Positions 1 to 7,149 of a stretch of DNA of 7,149 bases are shown here, piece by piece. How positions within the stretch are numbered: the stretch's first letter is position 1; each line of letters begins with the position of its first letter. Source of the DNA: Burkholderiales bacterium (lineage in GTDB: Bacteria; Pseudomonadota; Gammaproteobacteria; Burkholderiales; Usitatibacteraceae); assembly GCA_014378085.1 (NCBI GenBank), contig JACMOJ010000335.1, forward strand, positions 1 through 7,149, given 5' to 3'. The notes below the pieces were generated by a model, which saw nothing but the letters and a program-made list of their open reading frames with translations, was not told the origin of the DNA and searched no databases. Made by a program: the position numbers and the translations under genes.

Positions 1-2127
1 CGCCGCGCCGATGATCAACACGGCCGCTTTCTTTTGCTCGCGCAACGAGTGGCGGGTGATCAGCGTGGAGGTCGCCTCCGCATCGTCCTGCGCACCAATC
101 ACTGCGGTGATGGCTTCGTTCAACTGTTGTCCCGCCACCGGTTGGCGAAGGTAGGCGCTGATGCCGTTCTCCCGACAGGTAATCGCGTCGCCGGGTTTGC
201 CGTCCGCCGCAAGCATGATGATGGCGGTTTGTTTGAGCTTTGGATGATGCTTGATACGAAACGCGAGCAAAAATCCATCCTGCGTGGTTAGCTGGTCGGA
301 GGTGATGACGAGCGGAATCGGATTCTCTTCGTTGGCCATTCGCGTTAGCAACTGCAAGGCGACATTGGCGTTATCGGCTTCGCGTGGCGCCATGCGCCAA
401 CTTTTTGCCATCTCCGCGAGTTGGCTGCGCTCCTCTGTGTTCTCGCTGACAATCAGCACCGGCACGCCGGTCAGTGTCACGAAGGTCGGCCTGGCTTTGG
501 CGGGTTTGGTTTTCTCGAACGGGAAAGCCGCCGTGAACTGAAACGTGGTGCCGAGTTTGCGTTCTTGAATATCCAGTTTGTTCTCTGTCGAGCTCTCGCT
601 GGATTTTTGCGCGAGTGCGCGAATGATTTGCCGCGCGATTGCTAATTGCATGGCGGTGGCGGCGGGCAACTGCTTTGGTTTGGCCATACCCGGCCGGATT
701 AATTGCTCAACCGTGAACGATAGGTGAATTTGCTGCTCGGCCAAATATTCGGGTGCAATGGCAAGCGTAATCTCAGTCGGCCGCTCGACGGGTCCATCGG
801 CGGACGCGCCGGTGGATTTATCGCTGACGTCATTGGCTAGCGCGTCCACATGGGGCGCGGACTCGATTGCGTAGTCGATTAAATTACGCAGTACGAGCAT
901 CAACTTTGCCGCGTCGCCGATGAGTTCATCGGGCACATCTTGTTCAATGCGTAATTTTAGCTGCACATGGCGCTGCGCCGATTTTTCGGCGGTGCCGACA
1001 ATCATCGTTGCGAGCTGTTCGCGGAGATTGAACGGCGCAATCTCCATATTTATCAGCCCGCCCTCAATGCGTTGGAAATCCAGCAATCCGGCGACCGCAT
1101 CAACGGCGCTGCGTGTTGCCAGCGCCACGCGCCGCAGTTCAATTAAGATTTGCCCCGGCGTTTCTAATTGCTCGGATCGATGCACCGCCGATCCCGCAGC
1201 ATCAAATGCAATGCCAAGCTCCCGCACAATGCTGCCGATCAGCGTCATCTGGCTGGCGATCATGCCATCGGGCGCGGATTCAGCTGTTCTGGCGGCATGC
1301 GGTGTAGTTTGGTGAAACAAATGCAGTCGCCCGGCAATGCCCGATTCGCCGTCAACAGCCAGTGATGCTTGTAGGATGCTCTCGCCGGAGGCAAGCGGAA
1401 AAGTAAGTTCGTCGCGTTGGTTGCTGCCGGTCAGAACATCGAGTGGAAAATAGAGTGGCCCGATGCGCTTCTCAGTTGCCTTGGAGGCCGCTTCAAACAG
1501 CGCCGCACAACTGGTGCCCACCAGTGATTGTGGTGCCTCGCTAATTTCGAACAAGCGGCAGAATGCGTCGTTCAACATTTCGACGCTGCCATCCGCGCTT
1601 TCGACGACACATGCATCGCTGACGTTTTCAACCAAATCGAGTAGGTGGGTGCCCTGCACGTTAGCCGCCGCTTCACTGGCTTTCTCAAGCGACAGGTCGC
1701 GCAGCCACAGCCCCACGCTGACCGGTTTGCCGTTGACGTTGTTGGTGGCGCCAAGTTTGGCTTCCATTGGCAGCACGTCGTTAGCCGCGCTACTCACCGC
1801 CACACCCGCCGCCACACCCGCTGCCACACCCGCCGCCGCACCCGCTGCCACAATCCCCAACTCCATCCGATGTGAGCCGATCTTGCCGTCAGCGATACGT
1901 TTGAATGCCTGTTCAAACCGCGCCCGGTCACGGCTCGCAACGATGCGCGAAAATTCCCAGTTGTCGACGATGTCGAGTGCGTCGGTTGCCTTGGTGGCGT
2001 CTCCGGCTTCCCCGGCCTCGCCGGCCATGGTGCGGGCGGCCGCGGTAGCGGCGATGACTTTGCCGTCGAGGCTAAGCTCGAATATGGCTTCGCCTAACGC
2101 ATTGAGGAGGTTGGCAGGATTGTTCAT
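1..2127 (-). CDS. Hybrid sensor histidine kinase homologue with degenerate catalytic sites (PAS-PAS-HisKA-like-HATPase-like-REC-REC), C-terminus beyond left edge
   Basis: An open frame of 709 codons starts at ATG 2127 and reaches the window edge without a stop (every codon was read). No membrane segment is seen, so it is probably cytosolic. Two PAS-like domains lie at about 5-149 and 160-270 (DGSVEMLNDAFCRLF, 179-193). A HisKA-like helical pair follows at about 290-357, ending in DFQRIEGG (350-357), then a HATPase-like region at about 366-545 and a receiver at about 550-685. An ITRHSLRE linker (690-697) leads into a second receiver. The fold order is that of BarA/GacS-type hybrid kinases, but the catalytic signatures are lost. 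There is no His in 290-309 where SHEIRTPL should be. N415 is kept, but the second N-box Asn is Y419. G1 (474-478) and G2 (ATAMQ, 490-494) lack their glycines, and about 14 residues of the ATP lid are missing. In the receiver the acidic pair is S561/E562, the phospho-Asp position S610, Thr A640 and Lys Q662. The start overlaps the pgi stop and has no clear ribosome-binding site. The domain assignment is firm; absence of activity is inferred. Confidence 0.85.
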   Translation of the reverse strand, partial: MNNPANLLNALGEAIFELSLDGKVIAATAAARTMAGEAGEAGDATKATDALDIVDNWEFSRIVASRDRARFEQAFKRIADGKIGSHRMELGIVAAGAAAGVAAGVAAGVAVSSAANDVLPMEAKLGATNNVNGKPVSVGLWLRDLSLEKASEAAANVQGTHLLDLVENVSDACVVESADGSVEMLNDAFCRLFEISEAPQSLVGTSCAALFEAASKATEKRIGPLYFPLDVLTGSNQRDELTFPLASGESILQASLAVDGESGIAGRLHLFHQTTPHAARTAESAPDGMIASQMTLIGSIVRELGIAFDAAGSAVHRSEQLETPGQILIELRRVALATRSAVDAVAGLLDFQRIEGGLINMEIAPFNLREQLATMIVGTAEKSAQRHVQLKLRIEQDVPDELIGDAAKLMLVLRNLIDYAIESAPHVDALANDVSDKSTGASADGPVERPTEITLAIAPEYLAEQQIHLSFTVEQLIRPGMAKPKQLPAATAMQLAIARQIIRALAQKSSESSTENKLDIQERKLGTTFQFTAAFPFEKTKPAKARPTFVTLTGVPVLIVSENTEERSQLAEMAKSWRMAPREADNANVALQLLTRMANEENPIPLVITSDQLTTQDGFLLAFRIKHHPKLKQTAIIMLAADGKPGDAITCRENGISAYLRQPVAGQQLNEAITAVIGAQDDAEATSTLITRHSLREQKKAAVLIIGAA
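1795..1848 (-). repeat. 12-bp in-frame tandem repeat encoding AAGV units
   Basis: On the plus strand, four near-identical 12-bp units of the form cacacccgc-cgc/tgc lie at 1801-1848, with a partial unit before them. On the coding strand they give successive AAGV or AAGA units at about residues 94-111 of the sensor-kinase homologue. The run falls late in the first PAS-like domain, just before the terminal strands, so it probably forms a loop insertion. A second low-complexity stretch (GEAGEAGDATKATD, about 36-49) sits earlier in the same domain. Confidence 0.85.
2124..2127 (-). promoter_or_regulatory. ATGA stop/start overlap coupling pgi to the sensor-kinase homologue
   Basis: The pgi stop TGA (2126-2124) shares bases with the ATG (2127-2125) of the next gene. 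The sequence just upstream of that ATG has no good Shine-Dalgarno match, so ribosomes finishing pgi probably reinitiate here. The overlap is seen directly; the coupling is inferred. Confidence 0.8.
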
Positions 2128-3674
2128 TTTGCTGCGATGAAGTGCCGACTGATGGGCCCATCCGCCGGCGCCGACGATACCCGCGGCAACAACGTCTTCG
2201 CAATCGTCTTACCCAATTCAACCCCCCACTGGTCAAAGCTGTTTAGGTGCCACATCACACCCTGCGCAAACACTTTATGTTCGTACAGGGCGATGAGCGC
2301 GCCAAGATGAAAGGCGTCGAGTCGTTCGAGCTCAATCACGGCGACCGGTCGTCCGCCCGCATGCACGCGATAGAGCGGCAAGTTGTCGTCGTGGTTGCCA
2401 AACCAGAATGCGTCGGCCTGCGCAAACGCATTTGCGAGTAAACGTTCATGCTTCGACGCCGAGCGTCCTTCGCGTTCCCGCACGATGATGATGTCGCTCG
2501 AAATAATATCGGTGCCCTGATGCAGCAGCTGGTGAAACGAGTGCTGCCCGTTGGTGCCGGCTTCGCCAAAGATTACCGGGCAGGTCGCATAGTCGATGCG
2601 GTTGCCATCCAGATCTACGGATTTTCCGTTGGACTCCATTTCCAGCTGCTGCAAATGTTTAGGCAACAACGCGAGCCGTTGGGCATACGGCAGCACCGCG
2701 TGCGACGCGATGCCTTTGAAGTTGCGGTTCCACACCCCGTAGGCTGCCAGCAACATCGGCAGATTGCTGATGAAGGGCGCGGTGGCGAAGTGTTGATCCA
2801 TGGCGGCCGCCCCGTCCAGCATCGCGCGGAAGTTGGCGAAGCCTGTGGCAAGGGCGATGGGTAAACCGACGGCCGACCACATCGAAAAACGGCCGCCAAC
2901 ACCAACGGGAAAGGTGAACGTTGCGGCGAGCAGATAACCTTGCCGCTGTGCTTGCTCAGGCGCTGCGGTGATGGCCGCGAATTGGGCGGGGAACGCGCCT
3001 GCTCCCGCTCCGGCCTCCAGCCACGCCCGCGCCGCGGCGGCGTTGATGGTGGTTTCTTCGGTGGTGAAGGTTTTGGAGATGACCACCACCAATGTGGTGA
3101 GCGGCAAGAGGGGGGCGGTGAGGTCATCAAACGCAGCACCGTCAATATTGCTCAAAAAATGGATGCGCGGGCCATCGGCAAAACGCGTCAATGCGCGCAC
3201 CGCCAGTTCCGGGCCCAATGCCGATCCGCCAATACCGATCACCAGCACGTCGGTGTAGCGATGATCGGCCAAACTTCTCGCCTCAGCGTGGCCGACTCTT
3301 ATCGCTTCCACCCATTTTTTCACTTTCTCCAGCGGCTCGCGGATGTCTTCTGGTAGCGTGCCGCGTTCAGGCGGCTGTCGCAGTAATGTGTGCAGCACCG
3401 GGCGCTGCTCGGTTACATTCATGACCCTGCCCGCCACCAGCGCCGCCGACTTCTCGGCGAGTCCTATCGCTGCGGCAAATTCACCGAAGCTGGCAAGCGC
3501 GTCGGTGGTGAGGGATTGGCGAGTGAAATCGAGCGAAATTCCGCACGCGGAAACCAAGTCCGACCGTGTAGGCGGCAGCGCTTCAGTGGCCTTTGGCGAG
3601 CGCGATTGTTGCGAATCTGCCAAAGCCTGTAACGTTCGCCAAGCCGTGGTGTTTTGCGGTCGTGTCATGTGCAT
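2124..3674 (-). CDS. pgi: Glucose-6-phosphate isomerase
   Basis: This cytosolic enzyme interconverts glucose 6-phosphate and fructose 6-phosphate in glycolysis and gluconeogenesis. The 516-residue product shows the family landmarks in order: phosphate-binding IGIGGSALGP (146-155), SNIDG (175-179), SKTFTTEET (200-208), the first signature VGVGGRFSMWSAVG (257-270), MESNGK with the catalytic Glu (E347), GTNGQHSFHQLLHQG with the catalytic His (H385), and the second signature ending FDQWGVELGK with the active-site Lys (K489). It is therefore expected to be active. It is somewhat shorter than the E. coli enzyme (549 residues). An AGAGAGA run (221-227) is a small low-complexity stretch. The start at 3674 is the longest; ATG at 3668 is an alternative, and neither has a Shine-Dalgarno match. 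A perfect TATAAT lies about 25 bases upstream. The stop overlaps the start of the sensor-kinase homologue by ATGA, implying one transcript and coupled translation. Confidence 0.97.
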   Translation of the reverse strand: MHMTRPQNTTAWRTLQALADSQQSRSPKATEALPPTRSDLVSACGISLDFTRQSLTTDALASFGEFAAAIGLAEKSAALVAGRVMNVTEQRPVLHTLLRQPPERGTLPEDIREPLEKVKKWVEAIRVGHAEARSLADHRYTDVLVIGIGGSALGPELAVRALTRFADGPRIHFLSNIDGAAFDDLTAPLLPLTTLVVVISKTFTTEETTINAAAARAWLEAGAGAGAFPAQFAAITAAPEQAQRQGYLLAATFTFPVGVGGRFSMWSAVGLPIALATGFANFRAMLDGAAAMDQHFATAPFISNLPMLLAAYGVWNRNFKGIASHAVLPYAQRLALLPKHLQQLEMESNGKSVDLDGNRIDYATCPVIFGEAGTNGQHSFHQLLHQGTDIISSDIIIVREREGRSASKHERLLANAFAQADAFWFGNHDDNLPLYRVHAGGRPVAVIELERLDAFHLGALIALYEHKVFAQGVMWHLNSFDQWGVELGKTIAKTLLPRVSSAPADGPISRHFIAAK

Positions 3675-3699
3675 TCAAAGCGGTTGGAGGTTTGCGACC

Positions 3700-3729
3700 A
3701 TTATAGAGACCGCCGCCGCGGACTGGCAT
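3700..3729 (-). promoter_or_regulatory. Probable sigma70-type promoter for pgi
   Basis: On the minus strand a perfect TATAAT occupies 3705-3700. With an 18-base spacer, ATGCCA (3729-3724) matches four of six bases of the -35 consensus TTGACA. Initiation would fall near 3693, giving a leader of about 19 bases before the pgi ATG at 3674. The leader has no Shine-Dalgarno; it carries ACCTCC instead. The -10 element is clear; the -35 is weak. Confidence 0.5.
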
Positions 3730-3745
3730 GACAAACGACTTGCAT

Positions 3746-3751
3746 GGAAGG
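3746..3751 (+). promoter_or_regulatory. Ribosome-binding site GGAAGG that selects the exonuclease start
   Basis: GGAAGG lies 7 bases before ATG 3759. The earlier in-frame ATG at 3744 and the later one at 3780 have no comparable site, and an in-frame TGA at 3729-3731 excludes anything further upstream. This favours 3759 as the start. Confidence 0.55.
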
Positions 3752-3758
3752 CTCGGCG

Positions 3759-4895
3759 ATGTCAGCTAAAATTTTTCCTATGACGATTTCCCCGACTCCC
3801 ACTCCACCGCTTCTCGAACACACGCCACGCGGCCTTTACTGTGCGGCGGGGGATTTTTACGTTGATCCATGGCGGCCGGTAGCGCGAGCTGTTATTACCC
3901 ATGCGCATAGTGATCACGCCCGACCCGGCCACGAGGCATATTTGGCCACACCGGAGGCCATCGGGGTGCTGCGGACGCGGCTTGGCGCGCGGGCGGTGAT
4001 TGACACCTTGCCCTACCGGCAGTCAGTGCACATGAATGGGGTGGAGGTGTCGTTCCACCCAGCCGGGCATGTACTGGGCAGCGCGCAGGTGCGCATTCAA
4101 TATCGCGGCGAGGTGTGGGTGGTGTCAGGTGACTACAAACTGGACCCCGATCCGACCTGTGCGGCGTATACCCCAGTCCGCTGTGACACGTTCGTGACTG
4201 AATCGACGTTTGGTTTGCCGATTTACCGCTGGCGCGCTGCCGGGCAGATGTTTGGCGAGGTCAATGGGTGGTGGGCCGGAAACGCGGCTGCCGGGCGGGC
4301 GAGCGTGCTCTATGCGTATGCGTTTGGCAAGTCGCAGCGGATTCTGGCGAGTATTGATGCCACCATTGGGCCGGTGATCTGTCACGGTGCGGTTGAGTTG
4401 CTCAACCGCGCCTACCGCGACGCTGGGGTATTACTGCCCAACACGATGATGGTGACCGATGCAATGGTGACCGATGCGCCTAGCGGCTTTGATTTCTCGC
4501 GTGCGCTCATCATTGCACCGCCGTCAGCGGCCAGTTCGCCGTGGTTGAAGCGATTTGGTGCGTTTTCAGATGCGTTTGCCTCCGGCTGGATGGCGGTGCG
4601 CGGTGCCCGTAAGCAGCGTGGTGTGGACCGCGGGTTTGTGATTTCGGACCATGCTGATTGGCACAGTTTGCACACGGCAATTCGCGAGAGTGGTGCTTCA
4701 CGCGTGCTGGTTACCCATGGAAGCGTGGCGGTGATGGTGCGTTATCTGCGCGAGCAAGGTCTGGAGGCAGATGTGCTGGAGACTGAATTTGAAGGTGAGG
4801 GTGGGGCTGAAATTGTGGCGGAGATCGCGCCTGAGATCGCGTCTGAGATCGCGCCTGAGATCGCGGAACCCAATGTTGGCGAAGCGCAGTCGTGA
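3759..4895 (+). CDS. Ligase-associated DNA exonuclease (metallo-beta-lactamase/beta-CASP family)
   Basis: This is a two-metal nuclease of the beta-CASP branch, the EXO component that travels with ATP-dependent ligase in bacterial DNA-repair clusters. Residues below count from the 3759 start (378 residues). The family opening GLYCAAGDFYVDPWRP (25-40) is followed by the metal-binding HAHSDH (48-53), PAGHVLGSA (101-109, His 104), SGDYK with Asp 125, TESTFG (Glu 148), FGKSQR (189-194), SDHADW (296-301) and VTHGS with His 320. All the metal-site motifs expected for the family appear intact. The last 30 or so residues are a repetitive EIAP/EIAS tail beyond the conserved fold, which makes the protein longer than the roughly 330-345 residues I recall for the family. 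A five-residue tandem duplication (MVTDAMVTDA) lies at about 231-240. Alternative starts are 3744 (383 residues) and 3780. The stop overlaps the ligase start by four bases. Confidence 0.93.
   Translation: MSAKIFPMTISPTPTPPLLEHTPRGLYCAAGDFYVDPWRPVARAVITHAHSDHARPGHEAYLATPEAIGVLRTRLGARAVIDTLPYRQSVHMNGVEVSFHPAGHVLGSAQVRIQYRGEVWVVSGDYKLDPDPTCAAYTPVRCDTFVTESTFGLPIYRWRAAGQMFGEVNGWWAGNAAAGRASVLYAYAFGKSQRILASIDATIGPVICHGAVELLNRAYRDAGVLLPNTMMVTDAMVTDAPSGFDFSRALIIAPPSAASSPWLKRFGAFSDAFASGWMAVRGARKQRGVDRGFVISDHADWHSLHTAIRESGASRVLVTHGSVAVMVRYLREQGLEADVLETEFEGEGGAEIVAEIAPEIASEIAPEIAEPNVGEAQS
4449..4478 (+). repeat. 15-bp tandem duplication inside the exonuclease gene
   Basis: The unit atggtgaccgatgca (4449-4463) is followed at once by a copy differing only in its last base (4464-4478). 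It encodes MVTDA twice. Near-identity at the DNA level suggests a recent slippage or duplication that kept the frame. Confidence 0.85.
4821..4866 (+). repeat. 12-bp in-frame tandem repeat encoding the exonuclease C-terminal EIAP/EIAS tail
   Basis: Four units of gagatcgcg-cct/tct (the last truncated) run head to tail, preceded by a diverged unit at 4809-4820. They encode EIAP-EIAS-EIAP-EIA, an acidic and hydrophobic periodic tail after the conserved nuclease fold and just before the stop that overlaps the ligase start. Confidence 0.88.
4892..4895 (+). promoter_or_regulatory. GTGA stop/start overlap coupling exonuclease and ligase
   Basis: The GTG start of the ligase (4892-4894) overlaps the TGA stop of the exonuclease (4893-4895). 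No strong Shine-Dalgarno precedes it, so translation is probably by reinitiation, which would keep the two repair proteins in step. Confidence 0.8.
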
Positions 4896-6574
4896 AAGCC
4901 TTCGCCAACCTCTATGTGGCGCTCGACGGTAGTACGAGTACCAACGATAAAGTCGCGGCGTTAGTCGCGTACTTTCGCGCCGCGAATACCAACGACGCGG
5001 CCTGGGCGGTGTACTTTCTTACTGGCAACCGACCAAAACAAGCGGTGCCGAGTAAACGGCTACACCAGCTGGCCGCCGAGGTTGCCGGATTATCCGAGTG
5101 GTTATTTGCGGAGTGTTATGACCAAGTCGGCGACCTCGCCGAAATGATCGCGATGATTCTGCCGCCGCCCACCAACCGAAGCTTGTTGGGTTTGCATGTC
5201 TGGGTCACCGAGCGGCTGTTGGCGTTACGTTCACTCGATGAGGCCACACAACGCGCGGCGCTCATTCAATATTGGAATGAGCTCGACGGCACCGAACGGT
5301 TTGTGTTCAACAAACTCATCACCGGTGGTTTTCGTGTCGGTGTATCAACGCTATTAGTGGTGCGTGCGCTCGCGGTGGTGTCCGGGGTGGACAGCAAGGT
5401 AATTTCGCACCGGCTGTCGGGGATTTGGCAGCCGAGCGCCACAAGTTACGAGGCGTTAGTCGCACCCGGTTCCAACGAGTTTGATGTGAGCCAACCCTAC
5501 CCGTTTTTCCTCGCGCACCCCTTGCAGGATGCTCCAGACACCTTGGGCAACGTGCACGATTGGCAAGCCGAGTGGAAGTGGGATGGTATTCGCGGCCAGC
5601 TCATCAAACGGCAGGGACAGATTTTTTTGTGGTCGCGCGGTGATGAGCTAGTGTCGGAGCAGTTCCCGGAAATCATCTCCGCAGCCGGACGTCTGTCGGA
5701 CGTGGTGCTCGACGGTGAAATTCTGGCGATGCGTGATGGCAAGGTGCTGCCATTTGCCGCATTGCAGAAGCGCTTGGGGCGAAAAAATCCCGGCAAAAAA
5801 GTTTTATCAGATACGCCCGTCGTGTTTGTTGCCTATGATCTGTTGGAGGTCGCGGGCGAGGATTGGCGACAGCGTCCGTTGCACGAACGTCGTACCAAGC
5901 TGCATGAAGTGGTTTATTGCATGGTGCTGGGTGCGGACGAGCGCCACGTAATTCAGCTCTCCGACATTGTGCGTGCGCCGTCGTGGGCAACACTCGCGCT
6001 GGCGCGAGATCAATCGCGACAAAACGGCACAGAAGGACTAATGCTAAAGCGTCGCGACTCGGCCTATGGCGTCGGGCGAGTTGCTGGCAAGAGTGGACAG
6101 GGTGGTGAGCAGGGGGGGCAAGGAAATGACTGGTGGAAATGGAAAGTCGATCCCTTCACCATTGATTGTGTGTTGATGTATGCCCAACGCGGCCACGGCA
6201 AACGCGCCAACCTTTATACCGACTACACCTTCGGAATTTGGAAGACCAATAGCGACGGGCATCTTGAGCCAGAAATGCCGGAAAATGCTCGCCAATTGGT
6301 CACTTTCGCTAAAGCATATTCAGGTTTGACGGACAAGGAAATTCGACTTGTTGACGCGTTTATTCGAAAGAACACGCTGGAAAAATTCGGCCCAGTGAGG
6401 ACCGTGAAACCAGAGATGGTATTTGAACTAGCCTTTGAAGGCATTCAATATTCAAAACGCCACAAGTCAGGATTTGCGGTGCGTTTTCCGCGCATTGCGC
6501 GCATCCGGACCGACAAAAAAATCGAGGACGCCGACACGGTTGAAACGATTGCAAAAATGCTGCTGCAACAATAG
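4892..6574 (+). CDS. ATP-dependent DNA ligase of the exonuclease-associated (LIG-EXO cluster) family
   Basis: The product (560 residues, GTG start) seals DNA nicks through a lysyl-AMP intermediate. An N-terminal DNA-binding domain covers about 1-200. The adenylation domain carries motif I KWDG with the nucleophile K229 and R234, SRGDE (248-252), motif III LDGEI (E276), VFVAYDLLE (311-319), motif IV EGLMLKR (381-387) and motif V WWKWK (K416, K418). The C-terminal OB domain includes AKAYSGLTDKEI, FGPVR, FELAFEGI and RHKSGFAVRFPRI (523-535). All nucleotidyl-transfer motifs are intact. The conserved YGVGR (392-396) is normally followed almost directly by WWKWK; here about 15 Gly/Gln-rich residues (398-412) intervene, and a shorter insertion sits near 461-468. 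These help explain a length slightly above that usual for the family. It is cotranscribed with the exonuclease. It is not the LigD type: no polymerase or phosphoesterase domain is present, and no Ku gene is seen. Confidence 0.95.
   Translation: MKAFANLYVALDGSTSTNDKVAALVAYFRAANTNDAAWAVYFLTGNRPKQAVPSKRLHQLAAEVAGLSEWLFAECYDQVGDLAEMIAMILPPPTNRSLLGLHVWVTERLLALRSLDEATQRAALIQYWNELDGTERFVFNKLITGGFRVGVSTLLVVRALAVVSGVDSKVISHRLSGIWQPSATSYEALVAPGSNEFDVSQPYPFFLAHPLQDAPDTLGNVHDWQAEWKWDGIRGQLIKRQGQIFLWSRGDELVSEQFPEIISAAGRLSDVVLDGEILAMRDGKVLPFAALQKRLGRKNPGKKVLSDTPVVFVAYDLLEVAGEDWRQRPLHERRTKLHEVVYCMVLGADERHVIQLSDIVRAPSWATLALARDQSRQNGTEGLMLKRRDSAYGVGRVAGKSGQGGEQGGQGNDWWKWKVDPFTIDCVLMYAQRGHGKRANLYTDYTFGIWKTNSDGHLEPEMPENARQLVTFAKAYSGLTDKEIRLVDAFIRKNTLEKFGPVRTVKPEMVFELAFEGIQYSKRHKSGFAVRFPRIARIRTDKKIEDADTVETIAKMLLQQ
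6083..6127 (+). repeat. Low-complexity Gly/Gln insertion with a G7 run in the ligase gene
   Basis: This segment encodes residues 398-412 (AGKSGQGGEQGGQGN) between motifs IV and V. It is purine-rich and contains seven consecutive G at 6112-6118, a plausible slippage site. The flanking motifs on both sides are conserved, so this looks like a surface-loop insertion. Confidence 0.7.
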
Positions 6575-6595
6575 CGCGGCTCTGCCTAGCCGCGC
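6574..6595 (+). terminator. GC hairpin at the ligase stop, possible terminator without a U tract
   Basis: GCGCGGCT (6574-6581) and AGCCGCGC (6588-6595) form a perfect 8-bp stem with a 6-base loop, beginning on the last base of the ligase stop. No T-run follows, so it is not a classical intrinsic terminator; it could stabilise the 3' end or work with Rho. The 10-mer gcctagccgc occurs twice in tandem (6584-6593, 6594-6603), so a second, alternative pairing partner is available. Confidence 0.45.
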
Positions 6596-6624
6596 CTAGC
6601 CGCACAGCATAGCTTCACCCGCGC

Positions 6625-6737
6625 CATGGTTCCCTATATCCGATGTTGCCAGCGCGACCTCTGCGCGGCATGGTTCCGTATGTCTGATGTTGCCAGCGCG
6701 ACCTCTGCGCACCATCGTTTCCTATGTCGGCGAATAC
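6625..6737. repeat. 44-bp tandem repeat, two near-identical copies and a partial third
   Basis: Unit 1 (6625-6668) and unit 2 (6669-6712) match at 39 of 44 positions by eye, both opening with catggttcc and sharing the block gatgttgccagcgcgacctc. A diverged third copy begins at 6713 (catcgtttcctatgtc) and then breaks down, perhaps with a 12-base insertion, before cgatgtcgc. The period is not a multiple of three and no gene spans it, so it is most likely intergenic repeat DNA. Confidence 0.8.
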
Positions 6738-6987
6738 GTACGATGTCGCACACCAAAAGCATCCTACTACTTATGCGTCGCCGAACATATGCAATGCGTT
6801 TTTGTTTCAGGTATGGCGGCAGCAACTTCGGTTTGTCTTCAGCACGTCCTCGCAGTTGACGCAGACGTGACGCAATCTCGCGACGAGGTTATTCATGCCA
6901 CGACGGCGCGAGTGTTTCGCCAATCAGTTGCTTGCTGCAGTCCCGCCGACAGTTCGCGGCAACTCGGCAATTATTAATGGCCCGGCG

Positions 6988-7149
6988 CTAGAGGCCGTGG
7001 CTTGCGCTTGTTACAAACATGCGTCCGGTCACGAGTGAGCTGATGTTGAGCACAATGCCAATGGTTTTGATTGACGCTAGTCCGCCCGCGGATGTGCGGA
7101 AAATCTGCTGTCGCAACCGTGCCTTGGTGTAAGGACGCTGTGCAAATGC
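6988..7149 (-). CDS. Possible C-terminal fragment of an unidentified minus-strand gene entering from the right edge
   Basis: Reading leftwards from the right edge, a frame with no start in view stays open for 53 codons and stops with TAG at 6990-6988. The fragment begins with basic residues (RPYTKARLRQQ) and continues with a hydrophobic stretch (GGLASIKTIGIVLNISSLV). I do not recognise a family. If real, it would converge on the exonuclease-ligase operon, and the hairpin at 6945-6968 would lie just past its stop. Chance openness over so short a length is quite possible. Confidence 0.22.
   Translation of the reverse strand, partial: AFAQRPYTKARLRQQIFRTSAGGLASIKTIGIVLNISSLVTGRMFVTSASHGL

Follow-up and report, generated by a model that had tools for sequence, protein, structure and literature searches.

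Pseudo-histidine kinases and pseudo-receivers are already established, as a 2025 review sets out (PMC12632262), and three precedents bear on how such proteins may act: contact between kinases for RetS (PMC5992135), reading of a response regulator for DivL (PMC4211667) and ligand binding by a pseudo-receiver for ShkA (PMC7010744). RetS is described as blocking the autophosphorylation of GacS, taking phosphoryl groups from GacS and dephosphorylating the GacS receiver (PMC5992135). ShkA, a hybrid kinase of Caulobacter, is described as an active kinase with cyclic di-GMP (c-di-GMP) regulation on its first receiver (PMC7010744). Here, we analyzed a 7,149-nucleotide stretch of DNA from a Burkholderiales bacterium (contig JACMOJ010000335.1 of assembly GCA_014378085.1, positions 1 to 7,149; hereafter the window), which carries the gene for a pseudo-hybrid histidine kinase (hereafter the pseudokinase). 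This protein is almost certainly dead as a kinase but maintained. The best explanation overall, which we hold with slightly less than even confidence, is that its output is made by binding rather than phosphotransfer and is read at its first receiver domain, REC1.

The gene runs on the minus strand from an ATG at 2127 to position 1, where the edge of the window truncates it, and its 709 codons contain no stop, as the original prediction stated (at least 709). Orthologues are mostly 750-793 amino acids long, and about 80 residues, comprising most of the second receiver (REC2), fall beyond the edge. The three closest relatives are 77, 74 and 70% identical to the window protein and 789-792 amino acids long; the proteins P0001 and P0004 extend through REC2. 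The domain order is PAS-PAS-DHp-CA-REC1-REC2. The order first proposed, PAS-PAS-HisKA-HATPase-REC, was correct, but it overlooked the second receiver, the loss of the phospho-Asp, Thr and Lys from REC1 and the truncation. The gene is laid out as follows.

1..2127, minus strand: coding sequence of the pseudo-hybrid histidine kinase, truncated at its 3' end (709 of about 790 codons); open frame, relatives P0001-P0111 41-77% identical.
1693..2127, minus strand: PAS1 region (residues 1-145), of low conservation and carrying an insert of Ala/Gly/Val repeats; PAS_8 and PAS_4 each match two stretches of the protein, the P0001 model has strands and helices here, and TRF reports an array at 1797-1852.
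1273..1692, minus strand: PAS2, residues 146-285; Pfam PAS_8 at 164-204 and PAS_4 at 166-215, and the model of the orthologue P0001.
1063..1266, minus strand: pseudo-DHp, residues 288-355, with Arg302 (nucleotides 1222-1224) at the phospho-His column; alignment, and two long helices in the model.
493..1062, minus strand: pseudo-CA, residues 356-545, with N415 kept, Y419, Q475, no G2 glycines and a G1-G2 segment 15 residues shorter; alignment and model.
58..492, minus strand: REC1 pseudo-receiver, residues 546-690, with S561 at DD1, E562 at DD2, S610 at the Asp site, A640 at the Thr site and Q662 at the Lys site; Pfam and alignment.
1..42, minus strand: start of REC2, from about residue 696, with G707 at the DD1 position; relatives and alignment.

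The Ala/Gly/Val insert is encoded by a 12-bp tandem repeat of 4.7 copies at window positions 1797-1852; PAS1 is the least conserved part of the pseudokinase.

A search of 5.8 billion proteins, in which 7996 candidates were scored, gave 126 matches. Among the best 120 of these, 111 (P0001-P0111, some partial) belong to the window protein's own clade at 41-77% identity; below them, after a sharp fall in score from 337 to 97 bits, come canonical hybrid kinases at 22-27% identity. A profile of five proteins from a more Usitatibacter-like clade gave 412 matches, the best 120 of which were taken as a second, sister clade. We aligned the window protein with 105 own-clade proteins (the short or partial P0034, P0040, P0086, P0095, P0110 and P0111 were omitted), 117 of those best 120 sister-clade proteins (P0161, P0163 and P0175 were omitted) and 12 canonical hybrid kinases picked from the nearest canonical matches (P0115, P0117-P0120, L003-L007 and L025 were not used). 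In a FastTree phylogeny, the 12 canonical kinases, the sister clade and the own clade were each set off by a branch (support 1.0, 0.996 and 0.984).

Alignment with the canonical kinases placed R302 at the phospho-His column, Y419 at the second N-box Asn (N2), Q475 at the G1 Asp and A, A and Q at the three G2 glycine columns of the window protein; the missing His, the Tyr at N2 and the lack of G2 glycines had been predicted originally. The residues so replaced, and the first N-box Asn (N1), are all present in 12/12 canonical kinases. Moreover, the G1-G2 segment is 14 residues long in the window protein versus 29 in 12/12 canonical kinases, indicating that the ATP lid is missing; this shortening and lid loss had been anticipated, although the figures given then were about 16 and about 30. 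The claim that every catalytic signature was gone went too far, since the first N-box Asn (N415) and the GD..(K/R)L segment are retained. Alignment of the DHp-CA part of the window protein did not reveal a conserved His or a G box at any other site, and the full canonical residue set occurs in none of the 105 own-clade and 117 sister-clade proteins counted.

Pfam profiles agreed with the residues. PAS_8 (26.8 bits, cut-off 21.8) and, in REC1, Response_reg (PF00072; 35.3 bits, cut-off 30.2) matched the window protein, and neither HisKA nor HATPase_c was listed at E<=10, where HMMER filters discard most matches above E 0.1. The protein falls outside HisKA (PF00512), with no profile match and Arg302 at the His column, and outside HATPase_c (PF02518), with no profile match and an incomplete set of N, G1 and G2 boxes. 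It is a pseudo-histidine kinase as defined in PMC12632262, that is, a protein with at least one histidine-kinase function absent by sequence. The same review reports the His to be absent from 0.9% (722 of 76,471) of the HisKA domains sampled; proteins without a recognizable HisKA or HATPase_c profile, like that of the window, would escape such counts.

REC1 has lost its phosphorylation chemistry too: S610 replaces the phospho-Asp, A640 the Thr, Q662 the Lys and S561 the first acidic residue (DD1), leaving E562 at the second (DD2) as the single acidic residue. The phospho-Asp (replaced by Ser, Ala, Thr or, once, Pro), the Lys and an acidic DD1 are each found in 0/117 sister-clade and 0/105 own-clade proteins. 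The Thr position is Ala in 114/117 and 103/105, and DD2 is acidic in 32/117 and 15/105. REC1 lacks the residues of a phosphorylatable receiver (phospho-Asp, Thr/Ser, Lys and acidic pair; Asp in 0/222 relatives) and fits the definition of a pseudo-receiver in PMC12632262, a receiver fold without key active-site residues. Taken together, the pseudokinase is without the residues known to be required for binding ATP, for autophosphorylation and for phosphorylating REC1.

The folds are nevertheless kept. AlphaFold models retain the DHp-CA and REC folds, and the CA domain has the HATPase_c (Bergerat) fold. Because a VIA-align search with the full-length model returned mostly REC1 matches, chiefly CheY, the DHp-CA part was modelled alone; the top structural matches of that model include GacS, the RetS:GacS complex and RetS. 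A Foldseek search with the full-length orthologue model placed the NifL-NifA complex (Azotobacter NifL) second. We take NifL to be a PAS-PAS-DHp-CA protein that acts by binding, as proposed for the pseudokinase; unlike the pseudokinase, it presumably has no REC domains and a nucleotide-binding CA domain.

The two clades differ in how much has been lost. The sister clade has the His in 0/117, N1 in 117/117, N2 in 84/117 and the G1 Asp in 0/117, and its first, second and third G2 glycines are present in 0/117, 117/117 and 116/117. The corresponding counts in the own clade are 26/105 for the His (Arg in 73), 72/105 for N1, 0/105 for N2, 0/105 for the G1 Asp and 0/105 at each G2 column, which brings the G1 Asp to 0/222 overall. 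The G1-G2 spacing has a median of 14 in both clades (range 9-17 in the sister clade, 11-30 in the own clade). P0108 and P0109 (883 amino acids) have 30 residues between G1 and G2, with an insert near the site of the lost lid. Detection of HATPase_c followed the same order of erosion, the sister clade being less eroded: two of five distinct sister-clade proteins passed the cut-off of 26.4 bits (L047 at 28.9 and L049 at 33.2; L056, L058 and P0217 fell below), and the profile was not listed in the five own-clade proteins scanned (the window protein, P0001, P0061, P0108 and P0045). From the residue counts and the three-way separation in the tree, the common ancestor of the two clades had most likely already lost the lid, the G1 Asp and the chemistry of REC1. 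Its phospho-His was probably gone as well, and N2 and G2 appear to have been lost later, in the window's clade.

In 26/105 own-clade proteins (e.g. P0045, P0050, P0022 and P0030), a His occupies the phospho-His column, followed by Asp in 21; none of the 26 has N2, a G1 Asp or G2 glycines. Fitch parsimony on the FastTree phylogeny (one tree of 235 sequences) gave an own-clade ancestor without His and 6 changes, so this His looks regained or drifting; that result and the 0/117 of the sister clade led us to reject a His ancestral to the own clade. It may reflect drift, or a His phosphorylated in trans. A CA-domain His, not catalytic by position, is present in 95% of own-clade and 6% of sister-clade proteins.

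The pseudokinase gene is under purifying selection in its relatives. The ratio of nonsynonymous to synonymous divergence (dN/dS), counted over aligned codons only (pattern-based resetting of the start codon failed for L060 and L061), resembled that of glucose-6-phosphate isomerase (PGI), the product of the neighboring gene pgi. It was 0.104 between the window and G190 (PGI 0.060) and 0.176 between the window and L001 (PGI 0.190), both at a dS of about 1.8, near saturation. Across 16 sister-clade pairs with dS <0.5, it ranged from 0.10 to 0.38 (PGI 0.16-0.32 in the same pairs), and in four close pairs it was 0.00-0.16 for the pseudo-DHp and 0.02-0.29 for REC1. More diverged pairs gave 0.41-0.57 at dS 0.54-0.64 (PGI, where available, 0.37-0.51), which may reflect depressed dS in GC-rich codons. 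The own-clade pair L045-L046 was saturated in dS and yielded no value.

The gene is also widespread in one bacterial family. Among 300 genomes sampled from one order, of which only the three best candidates each were scored, there were 16 matches at E<=1e-25. Nine lie in the family of G190; the other seven are 26-39% identical, and all eight reference loci taken from them have the canonical His. Within the family of G190, 23/28 genomes matched at E<=1e-40 and two more (G302 and G317) at contig ends, giving 25/28 carriers, some with the gene split or truncated by contig ends. No match was obtained in G303, G314 and G316. G303 has pgi; pgi was likewise not found in G314 and G316, assemblies that may be incomplete. 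Named relatives among the protein matches are Usitatibacteraceae, Usitatibacter, Rhodocyclaceae, Nitrosomonadaceae and Burkholderiales, from which the carrier family is probably Usitatibacteraceae. The pseudokinase is inherited vertically, and no close paralogue was found in five carrier genomes searched with P0001 (next best matches at 23-26% identity). The own-clade and sister-clade relatives, this distribution and the dN/dS values support the original view of a maintained pseudokinase rather than fresh decay. Decay would account for the many motif losses and the poorly conserved PAS1; it was rejected on the dN/dS values, the distribution and the open frames of the relatives, which also keep the fold, and we give it almost no credence.

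That relatives across one bacterial family keep the pseudokinase intact suggests that it functions by binding other molecules, not by passing on phosphate. Since the known phosphotransfer chemistry is lost, binding would be its output, and the domain most alike between the clades, REC1 (58% identical, versus 26-36% for the other domains), leads us to infer docking or ligand binding there. REC1 is also the most conserved domain within the window's clade (70% identity), and many columns of its PGDAI.CRENGI.AY.R.P stretch are at least 95% fixed; a PDB sequence search with this stretch returned receivers such as PleD and CheY. REC1 conservation favors a REC1-centered output, and we put forward docking of a partner or ligand at REC1 tentatively, with slightly less confidence than the overall explanation. 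The pseudokinase would dimerize through its DHp into a PAS-controlled scaffold, its PAS pair would sense a cytoplasmic signal, and a partner protein or a small ligand would then read the resulting conformational change at REC1. The roles originally floated for it, as a scaffold, a partner of another kinase or a ligand-responsive switch, are likewise conjectural. REC2 may bring in a further signal, its phosphorylation by another kinase: most relatives keep its phospho-Asp (112/117 sister, 103/105 own) and Lys (117/117 and 105/105). The DD1 Asp of REC2 is present in 117/117 and 102/105 (Gly in the window protein and P0001-P0003), and its T position is Ser/Thr in 111/117 sister-clade proteins and an alignment gap in 96/105 own-clade proteins, so the own clade was not scored.

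Several observations weigh against this explanation. Among sister-clade proteins, conservation of the pseudo-DHp (79%) about equals that of REC1 (77%), so that REC1 is not the top domain there, which slightly lowers the odds of a REC1-centered mechanism and of the explanation as a whole. Strong conservation of REC1 could reflect a contact inside the protein. Phosphotransfer in trans onto the His might be possible for the 26/105 own-clade proteins that carry one. In addition, REC2 may have no activity, particularly in the group formed by the window protein and P0001-P0003, because an acidic DD2 is absent from 116/117 and 105/105 proteins (present in 1/117 and 0/105) and the DD1 Asp is also absent from that group. 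The protein family offers two sister clades that have lost their motifs to different extents, presence in 25/28 genomes of one taxonomic family and a between-clade conservation peak in the pseudo-receiver. With these, the switching of pseudo-receivers on and off, which PMC12632262 presents as the central question, would become testable within a single series of orthologues. Among the matches listed from open-licence PMC papers, none was found to describe this family.

The gene next upstream of the pseudokinase in the window is pgi.

2124..3674, minus strand: pgi (glucose-6-phosphate isomerase), overlapping the pseudokinase start by 4 bp; PF00342 463.6 bits, PRK00179 550 bits (cut-off 492).

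This gene is the adjacent upstream neighbor, in the same orientation, in 20 of the 23 places with the upstream side visible: the window, L001/G001 and 18 more genomes (G221 recognized by eye). The pseudokinase start overlaps the pgi stop by 4 bp in L001 as well. No pgi adjoins the pseudokinase in G309, G315 and G310; it was not found in G315 and lies on another contig in G309 and G310, which shows that the two genes are separable. In three further carriers (G319, G313 and G318), the upstream side ends at a contig edge or was not followed further. No dedicated regulator gene is evident beside the pseudokinase, pgi being the sole recurrent same-strand neighbor visible (by eye beyond pgi, exonuclease and ligase), and no downstream operon partner is evident in the neighborhoods listed. 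In G190 (L043 4257-7208, minus strand), a FIST-domain protein and then a canonical PAS-HisKA-HATPase_c-REC kinase follow downstream of the pseudokinase, an arrangement not evident by eye in the other nine neighborhoods listed, which were not annotated gene by gene.

From sequence, the RetS, DivL and ShkA precedents are indistinguishable for this pseudokinase. By analogy with RetS, it might pair through its DHp with an active BarA/GacS-type hybrid kinase that the same cell makes, forming a heterodimer in which that kinase is blocked or tuned. RetS and GacS/BarA resemble it in DHp-CA fold, in BarA being the nearest NCBIfam match and in having a kinase core followed by a receiver or pseudo-receiver, and this likeness, along with the well-conserved pseudo-DHp of the sister clade, favors a kinase or regulator as partner. 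BarA (NF008318) is the best NCBIfam match for the window protein and three relatives, but a weak and partial one, far below the curated cut-off of 890 bits (61.3 for the truncated window protein, 76 for P0001, 109 for P0121 and 106 for P0135). Similarly, the BarA model found hybrid-kinase matches in 7/7 carrier genomes, but none above the cut-off, and some matches of this search are the pseudokinases themselves; 11/14 control genomes matched too, so the search shows only that hybrid kinases, as possible partners, exist in carriers. Two of the three RetS mechanisms reported in PMC5992135 (GacS inhibition, phosphoryl capture and receiver dephosphorylation) need chemistry that the pseudokinase does not have. 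GacS is described as a working kinase, whereas the pseudokinase family has neither an ancestral His nor the G1 Asp and shows a shortened lid and a dead REC1; an Hpt domain was found in 3/3 canonical hybrid relatives scanned and in none of the pseudokinase family members scanned. We consider heterodimerization of this kind unlikely, though worth keeping in view. It is less probable again that, as in DivL, the defunct transmitter binds a response regulator in its phosphorylated form and makes an allosteric output of it. DivL, a Caulobacter pseudo-histidine kinase, is described with Tyr at the His site, where the window protein has Arg302; Tyr occupies that column in 1/105 own-clade and 0/117 sister-clade proteins. 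No regulator gene is evident beside the pseudokinase as a dedicated partner, and REC1, not DHp-CA, is the part most conserved between the clades and in the window's clade. DivL presumably also differs from the pseudokinase in having no REC1-REC2 tail. An output as in ShkA, with REC1 binding a nucleotide or metabolite and the remainder serving as a passive frame, seems equally improbable. ShkA has the same CA-pseudo-receiver-receiver order (PMC7010744), and the fixed columns of REC1 would suit a ligand site. However, its output is described as kinase activity (PMC7010744), impossible for the pseudokinase, which cannot autophosphorylate by known chemistry, and the PAS and DHp domains are under selection too.

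That one bacterial family has remade a PAS hybrid kinase into a phosphate-free allosteric hub with the pseudo-receiver as its working part is about as unlikely as the heterodimer. Such a hub would integrate signals from the PAS domains with an optional phosphorylation of REC2 by a second kinase and be read only by binding at REC1; if it exists, information would flow backwards in a two-component protein, from a receiver to the other domains. A role in metabolic regulation of glucose-6-phosphate isomerase or its operon is suggested by the frequent adjacency and overlap with pgi, but it is weakened by the neighborhoods without pgi, above all G309 and G310, where the pseudokinase is kept and pgi lies elsewhere, and we regard it as very improbable. 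We have equally little confidence in an unconventional kinase that would hold ATP in a remodelled pocket or accept phosphate on another residue. Such a kinase would account for the retention of N1 in both clades and, in the sister clade, of N2 and two glycines of G2; the second DHp helix also carries a His in 89% of sister-clade and 68% of own-clade proteins. The window protein is without that His, however, none of the 222 relatives counted has the G1 Asp, and the lid is shortened.

Divergent from the pseudokinase and pgi, window positions 3744-6574 (plus strand) hold a pair of genes with a 4-bp overlap, encoding a ligase-associated exonuclease (TIGR04122, 478 bits) and an ATP-dependent DNA ligase (TIGR04120, 633 bits). 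The same pair occurs near the pseudokinase in L043, L046, L050 and L054. A 12-bp repeat at window positions 4821-4865 gives rise to a repetitive Glu/Ile/Ala-rich tail near the exonuclease C-terminus, and a 44-bp tandem repeat of 2.5 copies (6620-6728) lies beyond the ligase gene, in a region where no gene is convincing.
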